Source of the DNA: Nitrosospira sp. Nsp2
GTDB taxonomy: Bacteria > Pseudomonadota > Gammaproteobacteria > Burkholderiales > Nitrosomonadaceae
Assembly: GCF_003050965.1 (NCBI RefSeq)
Contig: NZ_QAOU01000004.1
Location: 1 to 64,000, forward strand
DNA length: 64,000 nt
Reading direction: 5' to 3'
Shown here one piece after another: positions 43,339 to 63,644 of this stretch. Under the pieces are notes generated by a model. The model had not been told where the DNA came from. It ran no database searches and saw only the letters and a list, made by a program, of their open reading frames with translations. The position numbers were made by a program, and so were the translations under genes. Numbering within the stretch: position 1 is the first letter of the stretch; every line of letters begins with the position of its first letter.

Positions 43339-44723
43339 ATGCCTGCCCCTCATCTTTCTGCTGCCCTGAGCGATCCAATTCTGGACTTGGAGAGATGCAT
43401 CCTGGATGCGATGCCTTCGGTCGAGCATTGGCTCCGCAATCAATGGCAGAAGCACGCGGTGCCATTTTATTGTTCGATCGATCTGCGCAACAACGGTTTC
43501 AAACTGGCGCCCGTGGACACCAACCTGTTTCCCGGTGGTTTCAATAATCTCAACCCTGAGTTCATGCCGCTTTGTGTACAGGCAATGCTGGCGGCGGTTG
43601 AGAAAATATGCGCAGCGGCGCGTCGCATCCTGCTGATTCCCGAAAGTCACACCCGAAGTATTTATTATCTGGAGAACGTCGCCACGCTAGTTGCCATCAT
43701 GCGTCATGGGGGGTCGATATCCGTATCGGTTCGCTGCTGCCGGAGATTACGGAGGCGACCGAGATCAAGGGTGGGGATGGGAGCAAGCTCACGCTGGAAC
43801 CGATTCAATGCCAGGGCAATCGCCTTATGCTGGACGGATTCGACCCATGCGCCGTGCTCCTTAACAATGACCTTTCGACAGGTGTGCCGGCAATTCTGCA
43901 AGACCTCGAGCAGGTACTCATCCCCCCTTAATGCGGGATGGGCGGCACGACGCAAATCCAGGCATTTCAGCGCTTACGATAACGTGGCGCGCGAATTCGG
44001 CGGATTGATTGGCATCGATCCATGGCTCATCAATCCGTACTTTGCCTCGTGCGGAAAAATCGATTTCCGCGAGAAGAAAGGTGAAGATTCCGTTGCGAGC
44101 ACCGTGGATGAAATTCTGCGTGATATTCGCGAAAAATATGCCGAATACGGCGTCAAGGAGGACCCTTTCGTCATTGTCAAGGCTGACGCCGGCACTTATG
44201 GAATGGGCATTATGACGGTTAAGGACGGTGCCGAAGTGCGTACGCTCAACCGTAGGCAGCGCAACAAAATGGCAGTAGTAAAAGAAGGCTTGCAAGTGAC
44301 AGAAGTGATGGTGCAGGAAGGGGTATACACCTTCGAACGGGTCAACGAAGCCGTCGCTGAACCGGTCATATATATATGGTAGATCGCTACGTCGTGGGCG
44401 GGTTCTACAGGGTACATAAAGGCCGAGGTATCGATGAAAACCTTAATGCCCTGGGTATGCAGTTCGTGCCGCCCGCTTTTGAAGACACATGCCTGTTGCG
44501 GCATCGGGAGCCGCGGCCGGGCTGCGGAGCCAACCTGTTCTACGCTTACGGCGTAATAGCCCGGTTGGCGTTGCTGGCGGCGGTGCAGGAGCTGGAAAAA
44601 AGCCCGATCCCCACTAGCGCCATTATTGAATATGCGAAGCAGGATAAGCTTCCTCCCCCACTTTTAAGCTCAGTTGAGGGTCTTTGCGATGCATTGGTCA
44701 ATACGACCCTTTTGTGGCGATGA
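43339..44723 (+). pseudogene. gshA: Glutamate-cysteine ligase (proteobacterial GshA type), broken by three frame lesions
   Basis: GshA makes gamma-glutamylcysteine, the first step to glutathione. Pieces in three frames join to a normal protein of about 430 residues: SIDLRNNGFKLAPVDTNLFPGG and ESHTRSIYYLENVATLVAIMRHGG; then VDIRIGSLLPEITEATEIKG; then FGGLIGIDPWLINPYFASCG and IVKADAGTYGMGIMTVKDG; and lastly MVDRYVVGGFYRVHKGRG to the end. Breaks lie in a run of six G (43708-43713), a run of six C (43922-43927) and an AT repeat (44367-44379). One more G, one more C and one AT unit fewer would restore the frame. It may be a true pseudogene, a slippage variant, or sequencing error. gshB downstream is intact. 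Confidence 0.85.
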
Positions 44724-57281: not shown

Positions 57282-58469
57282 TTACTGAAAAATAGTTTTT
57301 CGCAACCCGGCAAAAGCCTCACTTACATAGTCGATCTGCTCACTAGTATGGGCCGCGCTCACGCTGCAACGCACCAGCGACTTCCCGTCGGGCGCGGCTG
57401 GCGGTAATATCAGGTTGACGTAAATGTCGTGTTCGAGCAGGCCCCGCCATAGCGCTAGCGCTTGCTGAGGTGTATCCAGTATGGTTGCGATAATCGGGCT
57501 GGGTTCCGGGCCGAGCTGATAGCCGAGCTCCTTTAGCCGGGTGTAAAGCTGGTGAGCGTTACTCCAGAGCTGTCGACGTAACTCTACACCTTCACGCAGC
57601 AATTTGAGTGCTGCCCGAGTCGATGCAATGGTAGCGGGCGTCGGGGAGGCAGTGAAGATGTAAGGGCGGCTGACATAGCGTAACTGATCAAGTTGGGGGT
57701 GATTGCTGACGCAATATCCTCCAATACTGCCGAGGCTTTTACTGAAAGTGCCGGTGATGAAATCGACTTCGTCAATAAGCCCGGTTTCTTCGACCAAGCC
57801 TTGCCCGATTCTGCCCAGAACGCCCAGAGAGTGGGCCTCATCCAGAAGAAGCGTACTTTTGTACGCAGTTTTTAACCTGACAATCTCCGCCAGTGGCGCT
57901 CGATCCCCCAGCATACTGTAAATACCCTCAACGATGATGAGAGTTGAGCGCGAACGATCTCCCAAACGGCGGAGGCGCTTCTCCAAATCTTGGGTATCAT
58001 TATGGCGAAACCTGATAATTTCAGCGCCACTCAAGCGGCACCCATCATAAATACTCGCATGCGAGTCGCCATCGATCAGAATGACATCCCCCGCTCCTGC
58101 GAGACCGGAGATCGTGGCCAGATTGGCTTGGTAACCGGTCGTGAAGACGATGCATGAGTGGCAGCGATAAAACTCCGCAAACTCCCGCTCTAGCGCTCGA
58201 TGCCCGGAATAGCTACCGTTCGCCATTCGAGAACCGGTGGTACCTGTGCCTTCACTATCAATCGCCTTATGAGCGGCTTCCAGGCATTGTGGCGCAAAGG
58301 TGAGTCCAAGATAGTTGTTCGTGCCCAAAAATAGTATGCGGCGATCGCCGATCTTTGCCGCCGTCGATGAATACACCTCTTCTATGGGCGTTCCAAAAAC
58401 TTCGACCCCTTCTGGCAGGAGCGCTTTTCTTGCGGCAGCAACAGCATCAAGCTTATCTAGCAGGCTCAT
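57282..58469 (-). CDS. spt: Serine palmitoyltransferase-like alpha-oxoamine synthase
   Basis: PLP enzyme of the AONS/KBL/SPT family, condensing an amino acid with an acyl thioester. The 395 residues have NNYLGLTFAPQ, the aromatic/His site DGDSHASIYDGC (His137), DEAHSLGVLG (Asp210, His213) and the PLP lysine Lys244 in ITGTFSKSLGSIGGYCV. The GTFSKSLGSIGGY form is that of serine palmitoyltransferases, whereas biotin synthases have GTFGKA and KBL has GTLGKA-like motifs. It overlaps the ACP gene by 4 bases. Neighbours support ketosphinganine synthesis from serine and an acyl-ACP. No biotin genes are near. Confidence 0.85.
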   Translation of the reverse strand: MSLLDKLDAVAAARKALLPEGVEVFGTPIEEVYSSTAAKIGDRRILFLGTNNYLGLTFAPQCLEAAHKAIDSEGTGTTGSRMANGSYSGHRALEREFAEFYRCHSCIVFTTGYQANLATISGLAGAGDVILIDGDSHASIYDGCRLSGAEIIRFRHNDTQDLEKRLRRLGDRSRSTLIIVEGIYSMLGDRAPLAEIVRLKTAYKSTLLLDEAHSLGVLGRIGQGLVEETGLIDEVDFITGTFSKSLGSIGGYCVSNHPQLDQLRYVSRPYIFTASPTPATIASTRAALKLLREGVELRRQLWSNAHQLYTRLKELGYQLGPEPSPIIATILDTPQQALALWRGLLEHDIYVNLILPPAAPDGKSLVRCSVSAAHTSEQIDYVSEAFAGLRKTIFQ

Positions 58470-58720
58470 TGTTGGGCAGATCTTATCTGATGAATCAAGT
58501 TTGTGAGTTCGTGAACAGTCTGAACATCTGCGAGAGCATTCAGGGGAACGGAAATATCGAACTCGTCTTCAATTTCCATAACGAGGTTCAAGAGCTTGAC
58601 AGAATCAATGGCAAGCTGATTAATGAGATCAGTTTCAGGTGTTATTTCAATATCAGGCGGGCAAAATTGCTTTAGATGCTCGCGCAGCTTCTGCAGAATG
58701 TCGTCGTAATTGTTTGCCAT
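58466..58720 (-). CDS. Dedicated acyl carrier protein
   Basis: The 84-residue protein is an ACP: helices around ILQKLREHLKQFC and the phosphopantetheine site DLINQLAIDSVKLLNLVMEI (Ser40), then FDISVPLNALADVQTVHELTNLI. The site reads IDSVKLL rather than DSLD, as in specialised ACPs. It lies between the epimerase and the SPT-like gene and would present the acyl chain loaded by the AMP-ligase. Confidence 0.93.
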   Translation of the reverse strand: MANNYDDILQKLREHLKQFCPPDIEITPETDLINQLAIDSVKLLNLVMEIEDEFDISVPLNALADVQTVHELTNLIHQIRSAQQ

Positions 58721-58750
58721 GAATGAATCCCAACTAATTGCGTTTTAGAA

Positions 58751-59665
58751 CTATATTGCCTGAGATAAGGCATCGCGCAACCGGACACGCGGATGCCAAT
58801 CAGGAAGCGCACGAGTTAGCGGAGTGATATTGCACACCCAGTCCGGATGTTGCAGTTCTCTCACTTTTCCAGGGGTTAGCATTGGCGAATAACGGAGAAA
58901 GCGGGCCGCCCATAAATTAATGTTTGCTACCAGCGAGACAAGTGACGCAGGCAGAAAAACGCAGCGTACCGGACGGCCCCAAACCTCCTGGGCAATAGCC
59001 GCCACGGATTTGCCGTCATAACCCCCTGGCATTCCATCGTCAAGCTCGTACACGCCCTGGACGGGAACGGGGCTTGAAAGCCAGCACAGCACAGCCGCAA
59101 CCAGGTCGCTCACGTGCAATAATCCGAAACGCATCGCTGGCTTTCCAACCATGGGCAACACCCCAAGGCGGGTCGCCTTGAATAAAGGCTTCATTTCCCT
59201 ATCACCCGGACCATAGACAGCAGTCGGACGAAAAATCGTAAACGGAAGGGACGGCGAGTGGTTGACGACCAATAGCTCAGCCATGCGCTTGCTGGTCGCA
59301 TACCAGGAGAGTTCGGGATTTCGGGCAGCTAAGGAAGAGATAAGGAGAAAGCGGGGCGGCGTAGTTTGCTGAGCGGAAGCGCGCAAGAGATTACCCGTGC
59401 CTTCAACATTGGTATGGATAAAATCTTCAAGCGACCTTCCCTTAACCTGGCCAGCGCAATGTACAACGGCGAACACATCCTTGACCAGCCTACTCAGTGC
59501 ATCAGAATTATTCAGGTCGCCTTCTATCCATTGCGTGGATTCATCATCTGCCTGAGGATACCTTGTAAGGGCCTTGATTTTCCATCCTTGCTCGATCAAG
59601 GACTGTAACAACGCACGACCAATAAAGCCGGTGGCACCGGTTACTGCCACCCATGACCCAGACAT
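58751..59665 (-). CDS. NAD(P)-dependent epimerase-family reductase (CerR-like candidate)
   Basis: Extended SDR protein of 304 residues: VAVTGATGFIGRALLQSLIEQG at the start, FAVVHCAGQVKG, SSLAARNPELSWYATSKRMAELLV (catalytic Tyr and Lys), and TIFRPTAVYGPGDREMKPLF. The ATG at 59665 is used because it starts the Rossmann fold and follows the ligase stop by 7 bases. In known bacterial ceramide operons an epimerase-family protein reduces the keto group; this one is the natural candidate. A sugar epimerase is the alternative. Confidence 0.88.
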   Translation of the reverse strand: MSGSWVAVTGATGFIGRALLQSLIEQGWKIKALTRYPQADDESTQWIEGDLNNSDALSRLVKDVFAVVHCAGQVKGRSLEDFIHTNVEGTGNLLRASAQQTTPPRFLLISSLAARNPELSWYATSKRMAELLVVNHSPSLPFTIFRPTAVYGPGDREMKPLFKATRLGVLPMVGKPAMRFGLLHVSDLVAAVLCWLSSPVPVQGVYELDDGMPGGYDGKSVAAIAQEVWGRPVRCVFLPASLVSLVANINLWAARFLRYSPMLTPGKVRELQHPDWVCNITPLTRALPDWHPRVRLRDALSQAI

Positions 59666-59672
59666 ATCCCCG

Positions 59673-61499
59673 CTATTTGTCCCCAGACTCGGCTGATAGC
59701 TGGTCTGCCAAATTGGTCCGCTGTATAAAACCTTGGCGGGCTGCAAAACGCGATAGCTTTCCGGATGAAGTCCGCGGCAACGTGTGCGGAGGCACTAATT
59801 CAACCAGGCAATTAACCCCGAATGCCATATAAACGAGCCGCTGCAAGCGACCGGTAAGGGACTGTCTATCTGTTACAGATGTAAGACGGCACTCGATGAC
59901 CAAAACGATTGTTGTAATATCGTTCGCATCGGTTATACCAAAGGCAGAGGCTTCCCGAGTCCTAACTTCAGGTTGTTGTTCCGCGAGTTCTTCGATGTCT
60001 TGGGCGCGAATATTGCGCCCATTAACGATAATAACGTCCGTACGACGCCCCGTAACGTATAGATCACCCTCGAACACGAACCCCAGATCACCGGTATCCA
60101 GCCAATTGCCAGGCTTTAACGTCTTCTGGGTATCTTCCGGGTTATTATAGTAACCCGTCATGATACTGCTGCCTTGCACCAGTACGCTCCCTACCCTGAG
60201 ATCCGACAACTCCAGGCCCGCATCGTCAACCACTTTCACAGTGTGCCCAGGCAAGGGGCGTCCACAGTTGACGAACTCGCTAAATTTTCGTCCCTCTGCT
60301 TGTAGCCGAACCGCCATTTTTTTGTCAACTAGCGTCCCGGCATCAACACGCAAACTATCAAAACCCTCACCGACTTGAGAAAAAGTTACTGCGAGCGTTG
60401 ATTCAGCCAATCCATAGCACGGAAGAAAAGCGCGTGCATCGAACCCGGCGGGTGCAAATTTTTCTGCAAAATTTCGCAAGGTATCAGGGCGAATCATCTC
60501 GGCGCCTACCCCTGCCGCACGCCAACTACTAAGGTCAAGATCTTCCAAATCCGAATCACGAACGCGCAACGTGCAAAGCTTGAGGCCAAAAGGCTGGCTA
60601 AACGCGACGGTTGCACGATTTCGGCTAATCAGCCGCAGCCATTGCAGAGGTCTGATCGCAAAATCCCGGGTGGCCAGATAGTCGACCGAGACTTGGGCAA
60701 CCATCGGCGCCATCACCATGCCGACCAATCCCATATCGTGATAAAAAGGCAACCACGACGCGCACCGGTCGCCGGAATGTATCTCCAATCCATGACGGAC
60801 AATTCCCTGGAGATTGCTCATCAAGGCGCGCTCCGTAATGACCACTCCGCGCGGAAGACGTGTGCTCCCCGACGTAAATTGCAGATACGCGATTTCGTCA
60901 GGAACGTTTGACTCTAACGCTACATCGGGAACCGAAAAATCCTCGAGCTGTTCTGGCGTGCCGAACCAGCGCAATAGTTGCGATCCTTCAGCAGCCTCTT
61001 GCAAAAAGCCAATGTAGTCGGTATTAGCTACGGCCGCACTTGCTTGGCCAGCCTCTAGCATTCCCCGAAGTTGTTGAACATATACGGCATGACTACCAAG
61101 GTTGACTGGTACGGGCATCGCATAAGGAATCAACCCTGCATAACGGCAGGCGAAAAACAACTCGACAAATTCCGGGCTTGTATCGGCGATAATAGCCACC
61201 CGCTCACCGCGCGCAAGTCCAAGCCCACTAAGGCGCTGGGCGGAGGTACGGGCATTTTGCCGTAGGGCGTGGTAAGGGAGGACTGAACGCAGGTTGCCTT
61301 TGGCATCGTAAAAGTTATACCCAGCGGTCCCGGACGCAGCGTATTCCAACGCAGCGGTCAGTGTGTCGAAGTCAGCTAATCTCTGAACCTGGGTGTTATA
61401 CGTTGGCGTTGGCGTTAGCGATATGTCTGATTCGCTTGATAATCGAGGGTTAAACGCTTGCGGTAGCGGAGCGTTCAACTTCGCTATTGTTGAACTCAA
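59673..61499 (-). CDS. Fatty acyl-AMP ligase / acyl-ACP synthetase
   Basis: The 608-residue protein of the ANL superfamily is FAAL-like. It has YLQFTSGSTRLPRGVVITERAL, ASWLPFYHDMGLVGMVMAPM, LPCYGLAESTLAVTFS, NWLDTGDLGFVFEGDLYVTGR and the late lysine motif PRTSSGKLSRF. The typical FAAL insertion (residues about 360-400) appears present. It would activate a fatty acid and load it on the ACP two genes downstream. I place the start at the TTG at 61499: GGAGGGG lies 6 bases upstream, whereas the ATG at 61532 has no ribosome site. It is the first gene of the operon. Confidence 0.88.
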   Translation of the reverse strand: MSSTIAKLNAPLPQAFNPRLSSESDISLTPTPTYNTQVQRLADFDTLTAALEYAASGTAGYNFYDAKGNLRSVLPYHALRQNARTSAQRLSGLGLARGERVAIIADTSPEFVELFFACRYAGLIPYAMPVPVNLGSHAVYVQQLRGMLEAGQASAAVANTDYIGFLQEAAEGSQLLRWFGTPEQLEDFSVPDVALESNVPDEIAYLQFTSGSTRLPRGVVITERALMSNLQGIVRHGLEIHSGDRCASWLPFYHDMGLVGMVMAPMVAQVSVDYLATRDFAIRPLQWLRLISRNRATVAFSQPFGLKLCTLRVRDSDLEDLDLSSWRAAGVGAEMIRPDTLRNFAEKFAPAGFDARAFLPCYGLAESTLAVTFSQVGEGFDSLRVDAGTLVDKKMAVRLQAEGRKFSEFVNCGRPLPGHTVKVVDDAGLELSDLRVGSVLVQGSSIMTGYYNNPEDTQKTLKPGNWLDTGDLGFVFEGDLYVTGRRTDVIIVNGRNIRAQDIEELAEQQPEVRTREASAFGITDANDITTIVLVIECRLTSVTDRQSLTGRLQRLVYMAFGVNCLVELVPPHTLPRTSSGKLSRFAARQGFIQRTNLADQLSAESGDK

Positions 61500-61535
61500 G
61501 GTCTTCCCCTCCAAATTAATCGTACTAGTCATCTT

Positions 61536-62158: not shown

Positions 62159-62503
62159 CTAAGCTTCCAGCCATGCCTTCGCATCTGCGTAGTTGCTGAA
62201 GACTCTGATGTCTGCATCAACAAACAGATTGAAGACCCATGCAGCCCAGGCCCGCCACTGATTATCGGTAATGATCGCAATCCGCCTGAAATCGTTGCCG
62301 TGCTCGCGAATAAATTTGATATCTTCCCATGCGACATCGACGGTGTAGTCCAGCATGTCGCGCCAATCAAACAGTACATCCACTTTGCTGTCCACACGGG
62401 ATTTGTAGAGCACCTGCTCTTCGAATTCCTTAAAATCTGCCAAAGTGAATTCACCAAAAACAGCAACGCTGATCAGATTGTCGGCTTCTTGAATGGTAAT
62501 CAT
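62159..62503 (-). CDS. SpoIIAA-like (STAS-related) protein
   Basis: The 114-residue soluble protein has the SpoIIAA-like pattern: MITIQEADNLISVAVFGEFTLADFKEFEEQ, VDVLFDWRDMLDYTVDVAWEDIKFIREHG, and IAIITDNQWRAWAAWVFNLFVDADIRVFSNYADAKAWL. These proteins resemble anti-sigma antagonists and lipid-binding CRAL-TRIO-like folds; no function is known for this branch. It lies 40 bases after the Rieske gene on the same strand. Confidence 0.8.
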   Translation of the reverse strand: MITIQEADNLISVAVFGEFTLADFKEFEEQVLYKSRVDSKVDVLFDWRDMLDYTVDVAWEDIKFIREHGNDFRRIAIITDNQWRAWAAWVFNLFVDADIRVFSNYADAKAWLEA

Positions 62504-62543: not shown

Positions 62544-63644
62544 CTACAAAAGATGGGGGTCGATTTCACGTCTCAGAAATTCGTGAAAGTGTACCATGCC
62601 ATCTTCCATCGGTGACTGATACGGACCTGTTTCGCTCATTCCCTGTTCATGCAGGGCGCGGCGTCCCTCACTCATCTGCCTGCAGATTTCATCATCTTCG
62701 ACGGCTGTTTCATGATAGGCGGCCTGTTCCGCCTCGATGAATTCCCGCTCAAACAAAGCGATCTCTTCTGGATAATAAAATTCCACTACATTAACGCACT
62801 GCTCTGTTCCAGCCGGATGCAGCGTGCTGATAATCAGCACATGAGGATACCATTCAAGCATGACGTTAGGATAATAAAGCATCCATATCGCACCCTGCCG
62901 CGGCACCTCTCCTGCCGTCTGGCGCAGGAGTTGCTCCTGCCACTTCGCATAGACCGCTGTACCAGGGCGTGTGAGACCATGATTGACGCCGACGGTCTGG
63001 ACGTTGTACCACTCGCCAAATTCCCATCTCAGTTCGGCGGTATTGACGAAGTTCCCCAAACCGGGGTGGTAGGGTTCAACGTGGTAATCTTCCAGATACA
63101 CTTCAATAAACGTTTTCCAGTTGCAGGCATATTGTTCCACCTGCACTCGTTCTAGGACGTGGCCTGAAAAATCAAAATCCTTCAGAACGCCTAGCTGTCC
63201 CAGATCGCGCGCGACATTCCGCTTTCCCCCGAACAGGAGCCCGTTCCAGTTTTGCAACGGTGTAGTGCCGAGATTAAGGCAGGGATTTTGCGCAAAGTGG
63301 GGCGCACCCAGCAGTTTGCCGGTCAAATCATAAGTCCAGCGGTGTATCGGACAAACGATGTTCCTGGTATTGCCCCGCCCTTTCAGGAGCAAAGATTGCC
63401 GATGGCGGCAAACATTAGACAATAGTTCGATACCATCATGGTTACGGACCAGCATCTTGGCGTGACTCATCCATTCCGGGACGTAGTAATCGCCGATATT
63501 AGGGACCATAATCTCGTGTCCGATATAGCCCGGACCGGCGTCAAACAAGATGCGTTTTTCTAAATCGAGAATATCGGAATCGAGATACCAGCCGACGGGA
63601 AGTTGCGTGGGTGTCGATTGGGAGAGATCAACTAAGTGGGACAT
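62544..63644 (-). CDS. Rieske-type aromatic-ring-hydroxylating oxygenase, alpha subunit
   Basis: The 366-residue protein has the Rieske 2Fe-2S site CRHRQSLLLKGRGNTRNIVCPIH (CXH...CX2H) and a catalytic domain with the mononuclear iron histidines in VYLEDYHVEPYHPGLG. It lacks a nearby beta subunit or reductase gene. The position next to xseB is shared with other Betaproteobacteria, where the substrate is not known to me. Confidence 0.88.
   Translation of the reverse strand: MSHLVDLSQSTPTQLPVGWYLDSDILDLEKRILFDAGPGYIGHEIMVPNIGDYYVPEWMSHAKMLVRNHDGIELLSNVCRHRQSLLLKGRGNTRNIVCPIHRWTYDLTGKLLGAPHFAQNPCLNLGTTPLQNWNGLLFGGKRNVARDLGQLGVLKDFDFSGHVLERVQVEQYACNWKTFIEVYLEDYHVEPYHPGLGNFVNTAELRWEFGEWYNVQTVGVNHGLTRPGTAVYAKWQEQLLRQTAGEVPRQGAIWMLYYPNVMLEWYPHVLIISTLHPAGTEQCVNVVEFYYPEEIALFEREFIEAEQAAYHETAVEDDEICRQMSEGRRALHEQGMSETGPYQSPMEDGMVHFHEFLRREIDPHLL

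Follow-up and report, generated by a model that had tools for sequence, protein, structure and literature searches.

The window analysed here, a stretch of 64,000 nucleotides of Nitrosospira sp. Nsp2 (contig NZ_QAOU01000004.1), carries four adjacent genes, aasR, cerR, acpR and spt, with predicted roles in sphingolipid synthesis (Table 1). An initial annotation had described them as an operon encoding an acyl-AMP ligase, an NAD-dependent epimerase-family reductase, a dedicated acyl carrier protein (ACP) and an alpha-oxoamine synthase. The gene calls agree with this description: the genes share the minus strand, their order and range are as claimed, gaps of 7 and 30 bases separate aasR from cerR and cerR from acpR, and acpR overlaps spt. 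The IDSVKLL motif of AcpR and the pyridoxal 5'-phosphate (PLP) motif of serine palmitoyltransferase type in Spt, GTFSKSLGSIGGY, were both found, and the four products exceed the cut-offs of the Pfam families AMP-binding (AasR), Epimerase (CerR, 99.8 bits), PP-binding (AcpR, 45.7 bits) and Aminotran_1_2 (Spt). The four-gene operon is confirmed. The start listed for cerR is the best one; with the alternative TTG at 59746 as start, the gene would be longer and would overlap aasR.

Table 1. Genes of the predicted ceramide pathway in Nitrosospira sp. Nsp2; positions refer to the window unless a contig (C3) is named.
Gene	Predicted product	Length (amino acids)	Position	Strand	Remark
aasR	specialised acyl-ACP synthetase (fatty acyl-AMP ligase family)	619	59673..61532	-	opens the operon
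cerR	NAD-dependent epimerase-family reductase (3-oxosphinganine or oxidised-ceramide reductase)	304 from ATG 59665	58751..59665	-	
acpR	dedicated acyl carrier protein	84	58466..58720	-	motif IDSVKLL
spt	serine palmitoyltransferase	395	57282..58469	-	overlaps acpR by 4 bases
bCerS homologue	ceramide N-acyltransferase		C3:232403-233578		another contig of the same genome; 50% identical over 375 amino acids to E. coli BL21(DE3) YghO

Predicted functions of the operon products

By sequence, the PLP enzyme is a serine palmitoyltransferase and is predicted to condense serine with a long-chain acyl thioester. Among the 13 NCBIfam models that it matched, SerpalmtaseBetaP (NF047599) was the only one exceeded, with 596 bits against a cut-off of 500, and the Spt proteins of E. 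coli BL21(DE3) (hereafter BL21) and Rahnella score in the same band (599 and 613 bits, respectively). The window's Spt is 54% identical to that of BL21. The enzyme might instead be another alpha-oxoamine synthase, such as 8-amino-7-oxononanoate synthase (AONS), 2-amino-3-ketobutyrate CoA ligase (KBL), a CqsA-type enzyme or a cysteate-using capnine synthase, and its product a non-sphingoid amino-ketone. All of these belong to one superfamily, and the NCBIfam models for bioF (333 bits), KBL (317 bits) and hydroxyketone synthases of the CqsA type (220 bits, cut-off 428) did match, each below its cut-off, as did two further Spt models and the 5-aminolevulinate synthase model. Ranking against solved structures, however, placed serine palmitoyltransferases first at 375-410 bits, with KBL scoring no more than 220 bits and cysteate-C-fatty acyltransferase 194 bits, and the gene stands in synteny with acpR, aasR and cerR as it does in E. 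coli B.

A gene tree of 30 rows was built from the window's Spt, 21 further Spt sequences chosen for taxonomic spread from the 80 named loci (the best 80 of at least 573 confirmed stretches with an spt relative), and the Spt proteins of BL21, Rahnella and Roseomonas. It also included KBL and BioF of BL21, the second alpha-oxoamine synthase encoded in this genome and two from its genus; CqsA was absent. A branch with 100/99 support separates all 25 Spt rows from these five; KBL, BioF and the Roseomonas row have long branches. The window's Spt belongs to a supported set of 11 (100/98), together with nine rows from Nitrosomonadaceae and one unassigned betaproteobacterial bin. Its nearest named relatives among the matches listed, at 88% identity, are those of Nitrosovibrio sp. 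Nv4 and Nv6 and Nitrosospira sp. NpAV. The tree and the models both place the enzyme outside KBL and AONS; for CqsA, a model only does so. The KBL, AONS, CqsA and capnine synthase identities were rejected on the models, the tree and the structure ranking, and we consider a non-sphingoid product very improbable.

The other three products resemble their counterparts in the BL21 ceramide cluster. AasR exceeds the NCBIfam fatty acyl-AMP ligase model NF006624 (859 bits, cut-off 600), is 46% identical to BL21 AasR over 557 amino acids, and has as its closest solved structure the fatty acyl-adenylate ligase 3pbk. AcpR is 49% identical to BL21 AcpR over 49 amino acids; it matched 16 NCBIfam carrier-protein models, each below its cut-off. 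CerR is 42% identical to BL21 CerR over 300 amino acids. Its Rossmann motif, GATGFIG, starts at residue 10 counted from the ATG. Of the 75 named loci that match CerR, 71 showed the motif, and 60 of those 71 have an ATG 5-13 residues ahead of it. Because the motif is so close to the N-terminus, no classical signal peptide is encoded. The short N-terminus fits a cytoplasmic CerR and would still be compatible with an unusual export; CerR of Caulobacter, in contrast, has been reported to be periplasmic (PMC11087976).

A ceramide synthase homologue close to lptF and lptG

The ceramide N-acyltransferase (bCerS) had been noted as missing from the window, which is right, and a homologue is encoded elsewhere in the genome (Table 1). 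With BL21 YghO as query, one match was obtained in this genome (C3:232460-233572) and one in each of the 23 genus genomes. YghO has been grouped with CC_1154 of Caulobacter and Neut_1100 of Nitrosomonas eutropha as N-acyltransferase counterparts (PMC9386255). In order, the Nitrosospira locus (L062) encodes bCerS, an NTP_transf_3 (MobA-like) protein, LptF, LptG, a DAGK_cat protein and a protein with no Pfam or NCBIfam match. LptF and LptG exceed TIGR04407 (337 bits, cut-off 230) and TIGR04408 (323 bits, cut-off 240), respectively. The genome contains one LptF and one LptG, both close to bCerS. LptF scores 173-199 bits against the LptF2 proteins of the BL21 and Rahnella sphingolipid clusters versus 79 bits against canonical BL21 LptF, and LptG scores 184-202 bits against the corresponding LptG2 proteins versus 139 bits against canonical BL21 LptG. 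The arrangement recurs in the genus: a nucleotidyltransferase gene directly follows cerS in 23/23 loci and is followed by lptF in 22/23, with an LptG-like match in its place at the remaining one (L050).

The genes flanking lptF and lptG suggest modification of the ceramide. The MobA-like protein may be the counterpart of one or another of the Caulobacter nucleotidyltransferases. The DAGK_cat protein reaches 61 bits against a Pfam cut-off of 23.6. The protein after this kinase, which looks nucleotidyltransferase-like by eye, is 39% identical over 274 amino acids to a gene product of the Roseomonas Spt cluster; that Roseomonas gene, likewise without a Pfam match, adjoins genes for a lipid kinase and a CDP-alcohol phosphotransferase. 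From these second-locus genes, namely those for the MobA-like protein, LptF, LptG, the DAGK-family kinase and the protein shared with Roseomonas, it follows that the ceramide is probably converted into an anionic phospho-sphingolipid of the ceramide phosphoglycerate (CPG) type, the head group being assigned on weak homology, which would be exported by Lpt proteins and stand in for lipopolysaccharide (LPS).

Convergent to the bCerS cluster on the minus strand (L062:15970-19240; C3:238969-242239) lie genes for a HAD hydrolase, an NAD epimerase, a 2-hydroxyacid dehydrogenase and an HpcH/HpaI aldolase. It is conceivable that these genes supply a glycerate-type unit for the head group.

Similar gene sets are known from other bacteria. 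In BL21 the cluster (yghO, ECD_RS14830 to ECD_RS14845) has the same aasR, cerR, acpR, spt order, and a second lptF/lptG pair lies directly downstream. Unlike the Nitrosospira arrangement, yghO adjoins the four genes, lpxC and a canonical lptF/lptG pair are also present, and genes annotated as dTMP kinases stand where the Nitrosospira locus has a DAGK-type kinase. Caulobacter crescentus has the same ceramide and CPG pathway (CC_1162-1165 and CC_1152-1161). There, CC_1154 (CerS), CC_1153 (a CofC-like nucleotidyltransferase) and CC_1155/1156 (LptG2/LptF2) are found together, and the ceramide kinase is encoded by CC_1160 (PMC11324152). Caulobacter differs in being an alphaproteobacterium with LPS, in having second copies of LptC, LptF and LptG, and in keeping the genes in one contiguous 17-gene region.

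Taken together, the operon very probably represents the core of a bacterial ceramide pathway of the Rhodobacteria type: acpR directly precedes spt, aasR is in the genome, CerR is encoded in the operon and the bCerS homologue is on contig C3. In other Rhodobacteria, AasR loads AcpR, and Spt prefers acyl-AcpR as its substrate (PMC9386255). By analogy with tested homologues, AasR would turn a free fatty acid into acyl-AMP and load the acyl group onto AcpR, and Spt would join acyl-AcpR and L-serine into 3-oxosphinganine. Ketone reduction by CerR and N-acylation by the bCerS homologue would follow, in either order, and yield ceramide; which of the two steps comes first is disputed (PMC11087976, PMC11324152). 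The ceramide would next receive its anionic head group through the kinase and nucleotidyltransferase, and LptF/LptG would move the resulting sphingolipid to the outer membrane. The earlier suggestion that this nitrifier can make ketosphinganine is consistent with this gene set, from which both 3-oxosphinganine and ceramide would be expected.

Distribution of the pathway, lipid A genes and the outer membrane

In 71 of the 80 named loci the four operon genes keep their order and shared strand inside a 4.5 kb stretch; the layout is not due to chance. Among the remaining nine, five have spt 230-1195 bases from the contig start and four (L138, L141, L148, L157) are arranged differently. In a survey of 101 genomes of the family that are at least 90% complete, Spt exceeded its cut-off in 100, as it did in all 23 genus genomes, and a bCerS match was found in 100 (in G078 only in part, on a contig end). 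The one genome with neither an Spt over the cut-off nor a bCerS match is G066 (91% complete). LpxC was likewise not found in it, and the genome has either an assembly gap or comes from a cell with neither lipid. In an even sample of 399 genomes of the order, Spt was over the cut-off in 17, 15 of which are all the family members sampled. Outside the family it was thus found in 2/384 genomes, in principle a lower bound because scoring was limited to four candidates per genome. The Spt trait marks the ammonia-oxidiser family. Three loci titled as Moraxellaceae (L090), Bacteroidetes (L122) and Klebsiella pneumoniae (L127) encode Spt proteins 85, 78 and 69% identical to that of the window, and are probably mislabelled or contaminated bins.

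Related clusters are plasmid-borne in gamma- and alphaproteobacteria, so we considered whether this strain gained the operon recently by horizontal transfer, with no conserved role attached to it. Its G+C content of 52.7%, however, is close to the 53.2% of the whole window, Spt is encoded throughout the genus and in all but one of the family genomes, and in the tree the window's Spt groups with the Nitrosomonadaceae rows. Strain-specific transfer was rejected on G+C content, family-wide presence and the gene tree, and we give it almost no credence.

The operon itself is already described in a close relative. N. eutropha C91 carries the same four genes in consecutive locus tags, Neut_0458-0461 (aasR-epi-acpR-spt), with the N-acyltransferase gene (aca/cerS, Neut_1100) elsewhere (PMC9386255, PMC11324152); it belongs to the same family and to a different genus. 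CPG and a second phosphoglycerate lipid, CPG2, have been predicted for N. eutropha from gene content (PMC11324152). Since this operon has been published, the one in the window is a known system, and sphingolipid genes are not unexpected in the group, contrary to what the initial annotation had supposed.

Lipid A, and with it LPS, cannot be made without LpxC. The LpxC profile PF03331 had no match in this genome (99.96% complete) or in any of the 101 family genomes; the controls E. coli, Caulobacter, Synechococcus and Bacteroides were positive, with no betaproteobacterium among them. LpxC is the lipid A gene that was surveyed across all 101 genomes. In other Betaproteobacteria, lpxC lies between ftsZ and the genes for DciA and the M23 peptidase, and the order in BL21 is ftsZ-lpxC-secM-secA. 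The division and cell wall (dcw) cluster of Nsp2 contains ftsA, ftsZ (C4:245987-247150), the DciA gene, the M23 peptidase gene and secA (from 248746), and lpxC is absent from between ftsZ and secA (C4:245987-251487; L279:1987-7487). In tblastn searches with BL21 LpxA, LpxB, LpxC, LpxD and WaaA, no good match was obtained in stretches covering 71% of the genome. The best was that of LpxD, 27% identical over a partial stretch with an E value of 5e-4, which was read as a generic hexapeptide-repeat acyltransferase. A 2010 survey found lipid A genes nearly all missing in N. europaea and N. multiformis, called the loss consistent with genome reduction, and reported that some Betaproteobacteria, including Bordetella and Dechloromonas, carry all these genes except lpxM (PMC3087551).

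Of the 101 family genomes, 100 have Spt and bCerS and gave no LpxC match. With moderate confidence, we propose that the betaproteobacterial ammonia oxidisers as a whole family replaced LPS by an anionic sphingolipid: lipid A would have been lost in their ancestor, the five ceramide genes fixed, and LptF/LptG would export the sphingolipid. Alternatively, the sphingolipid might be made as a minor or stress lipid, for example in the inner or intracytoplasmic membranes, with lipid A having disappeared independently of it. Caulobacter makes both LPS and sphingolipids (PMC11324152), therefore a sphingolipid pathway does not require the loss of LPS. A minor role, however, sits poorly with a pathway that is nearly universal in a family where LpxC was not found, and with the closeness to bCerS of LptF and LptG, each encoded just once in the genome. 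We regard it as rather unlikely. The link to the extensive inner membranes drawn in the initial annotation likewise found no support; because lptF and lptG neighbour bCerS and LpxC was not found, the outer membrane is indicated. Of that earlier interpretation, the core pathway stands, and neither its unexpectedness nor the inner-membrane link does.

Several observations weigh against the pathway to an anionic sphingolipid or against the replacement of LPS by it. For a Nitrosospira-type strain the ceramide pathway is predicted from gene content. Tsf and FabZ were not found in the same 71% of the genome and BamA was matched weakly, so that the lpxD-fabZ-lpxA-lpxB region probably lies outside the part searched. 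One lipid A gene remains in each of two relatives, lpxK in N. europaea and lpxA in N. multiformis (PMC3087551). RfaC/RfaF matches of 22-26% identity occur at three places on contig C3 (C3:164555-170952, locus L220). Given these heptosyltransferase-like matches, some saccharide surface polymer is possible, and the genes may build another surface glycan in a genome without an LpxC match. As for the head group, the DAGK_cat kinase is 24% identical to the Roseomonas kinase and reaches no NCBIfam cut-off, and BL21 kinase-like YghT was unmatched in this genome in a search without a positive control. The CpgA-like CDP-alcohol phosphotransferase of Roseomonas was unmatched in the 71% of the genome and in the three PF01066 proteins that the genome encodes, and CPG2 is therefore unsupported.

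The point of interest is the pairing, in a globally important family of nitrifiers, of an LpxC that was not found with a ceramide pathway that is nearly always present. In the literature searched, no work on ammonia oxidisers connected the disappearance of lipid A with sphingolipids; an earlier mention may exist. The word 'sphingo' occurs nowhere in the text of PMC3087551, the terms LPS, lipopolysaccharide and outer membrane do not occur in that of PMC9386255, and the N. eutropha section of PMC11324152 is silent on LPS in that organism. Caulobacter can survive without LPS in a manner partly dependent on CPG2 (PMC12275187). If sphingolipids have replaced LPS in ammonia oxidisers, the family would be a natural counterpart of such laboratory mutants, which live without LPS aided by an anionic sphingolipid. 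It would offer a way to learn what Lpt machines carry in the absence of LPS, and the envelope of these bacteria would merit a fresh look.

Signals within the operon and neighbouring genes

Promoter-like sites at the operon were not above chance (3 observed versus 4.6 expected). Terminator-like sites exceeded chance (12 observed versus 6.1 expected, standard deviation 2.3), yet every one lies within a gene and spt is followed by none.

Upstream of the operon on the minus strand are genes for a SpoIIAA-like protein (62159-62503) and a Rieske ring-hydroxylating oxygenase (62544-63644). Of the 71 named loci with all four genes, 10 have this pair next to the operon; these 10 are titled Nitrosospira or Nitrosovibrio apart from one unassigned betaproteobacterial bin, and none is titled Nitrosomonas. 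The two genes were dropped as pathway members on this distribution and on their distance of about 630 bases from aasR. Elsewhere in the window, at 43339-44382 on the plus strand, an open reading frame resembles glutamate-cysteine ligase by eye, with part of its interior apparently out of frame.

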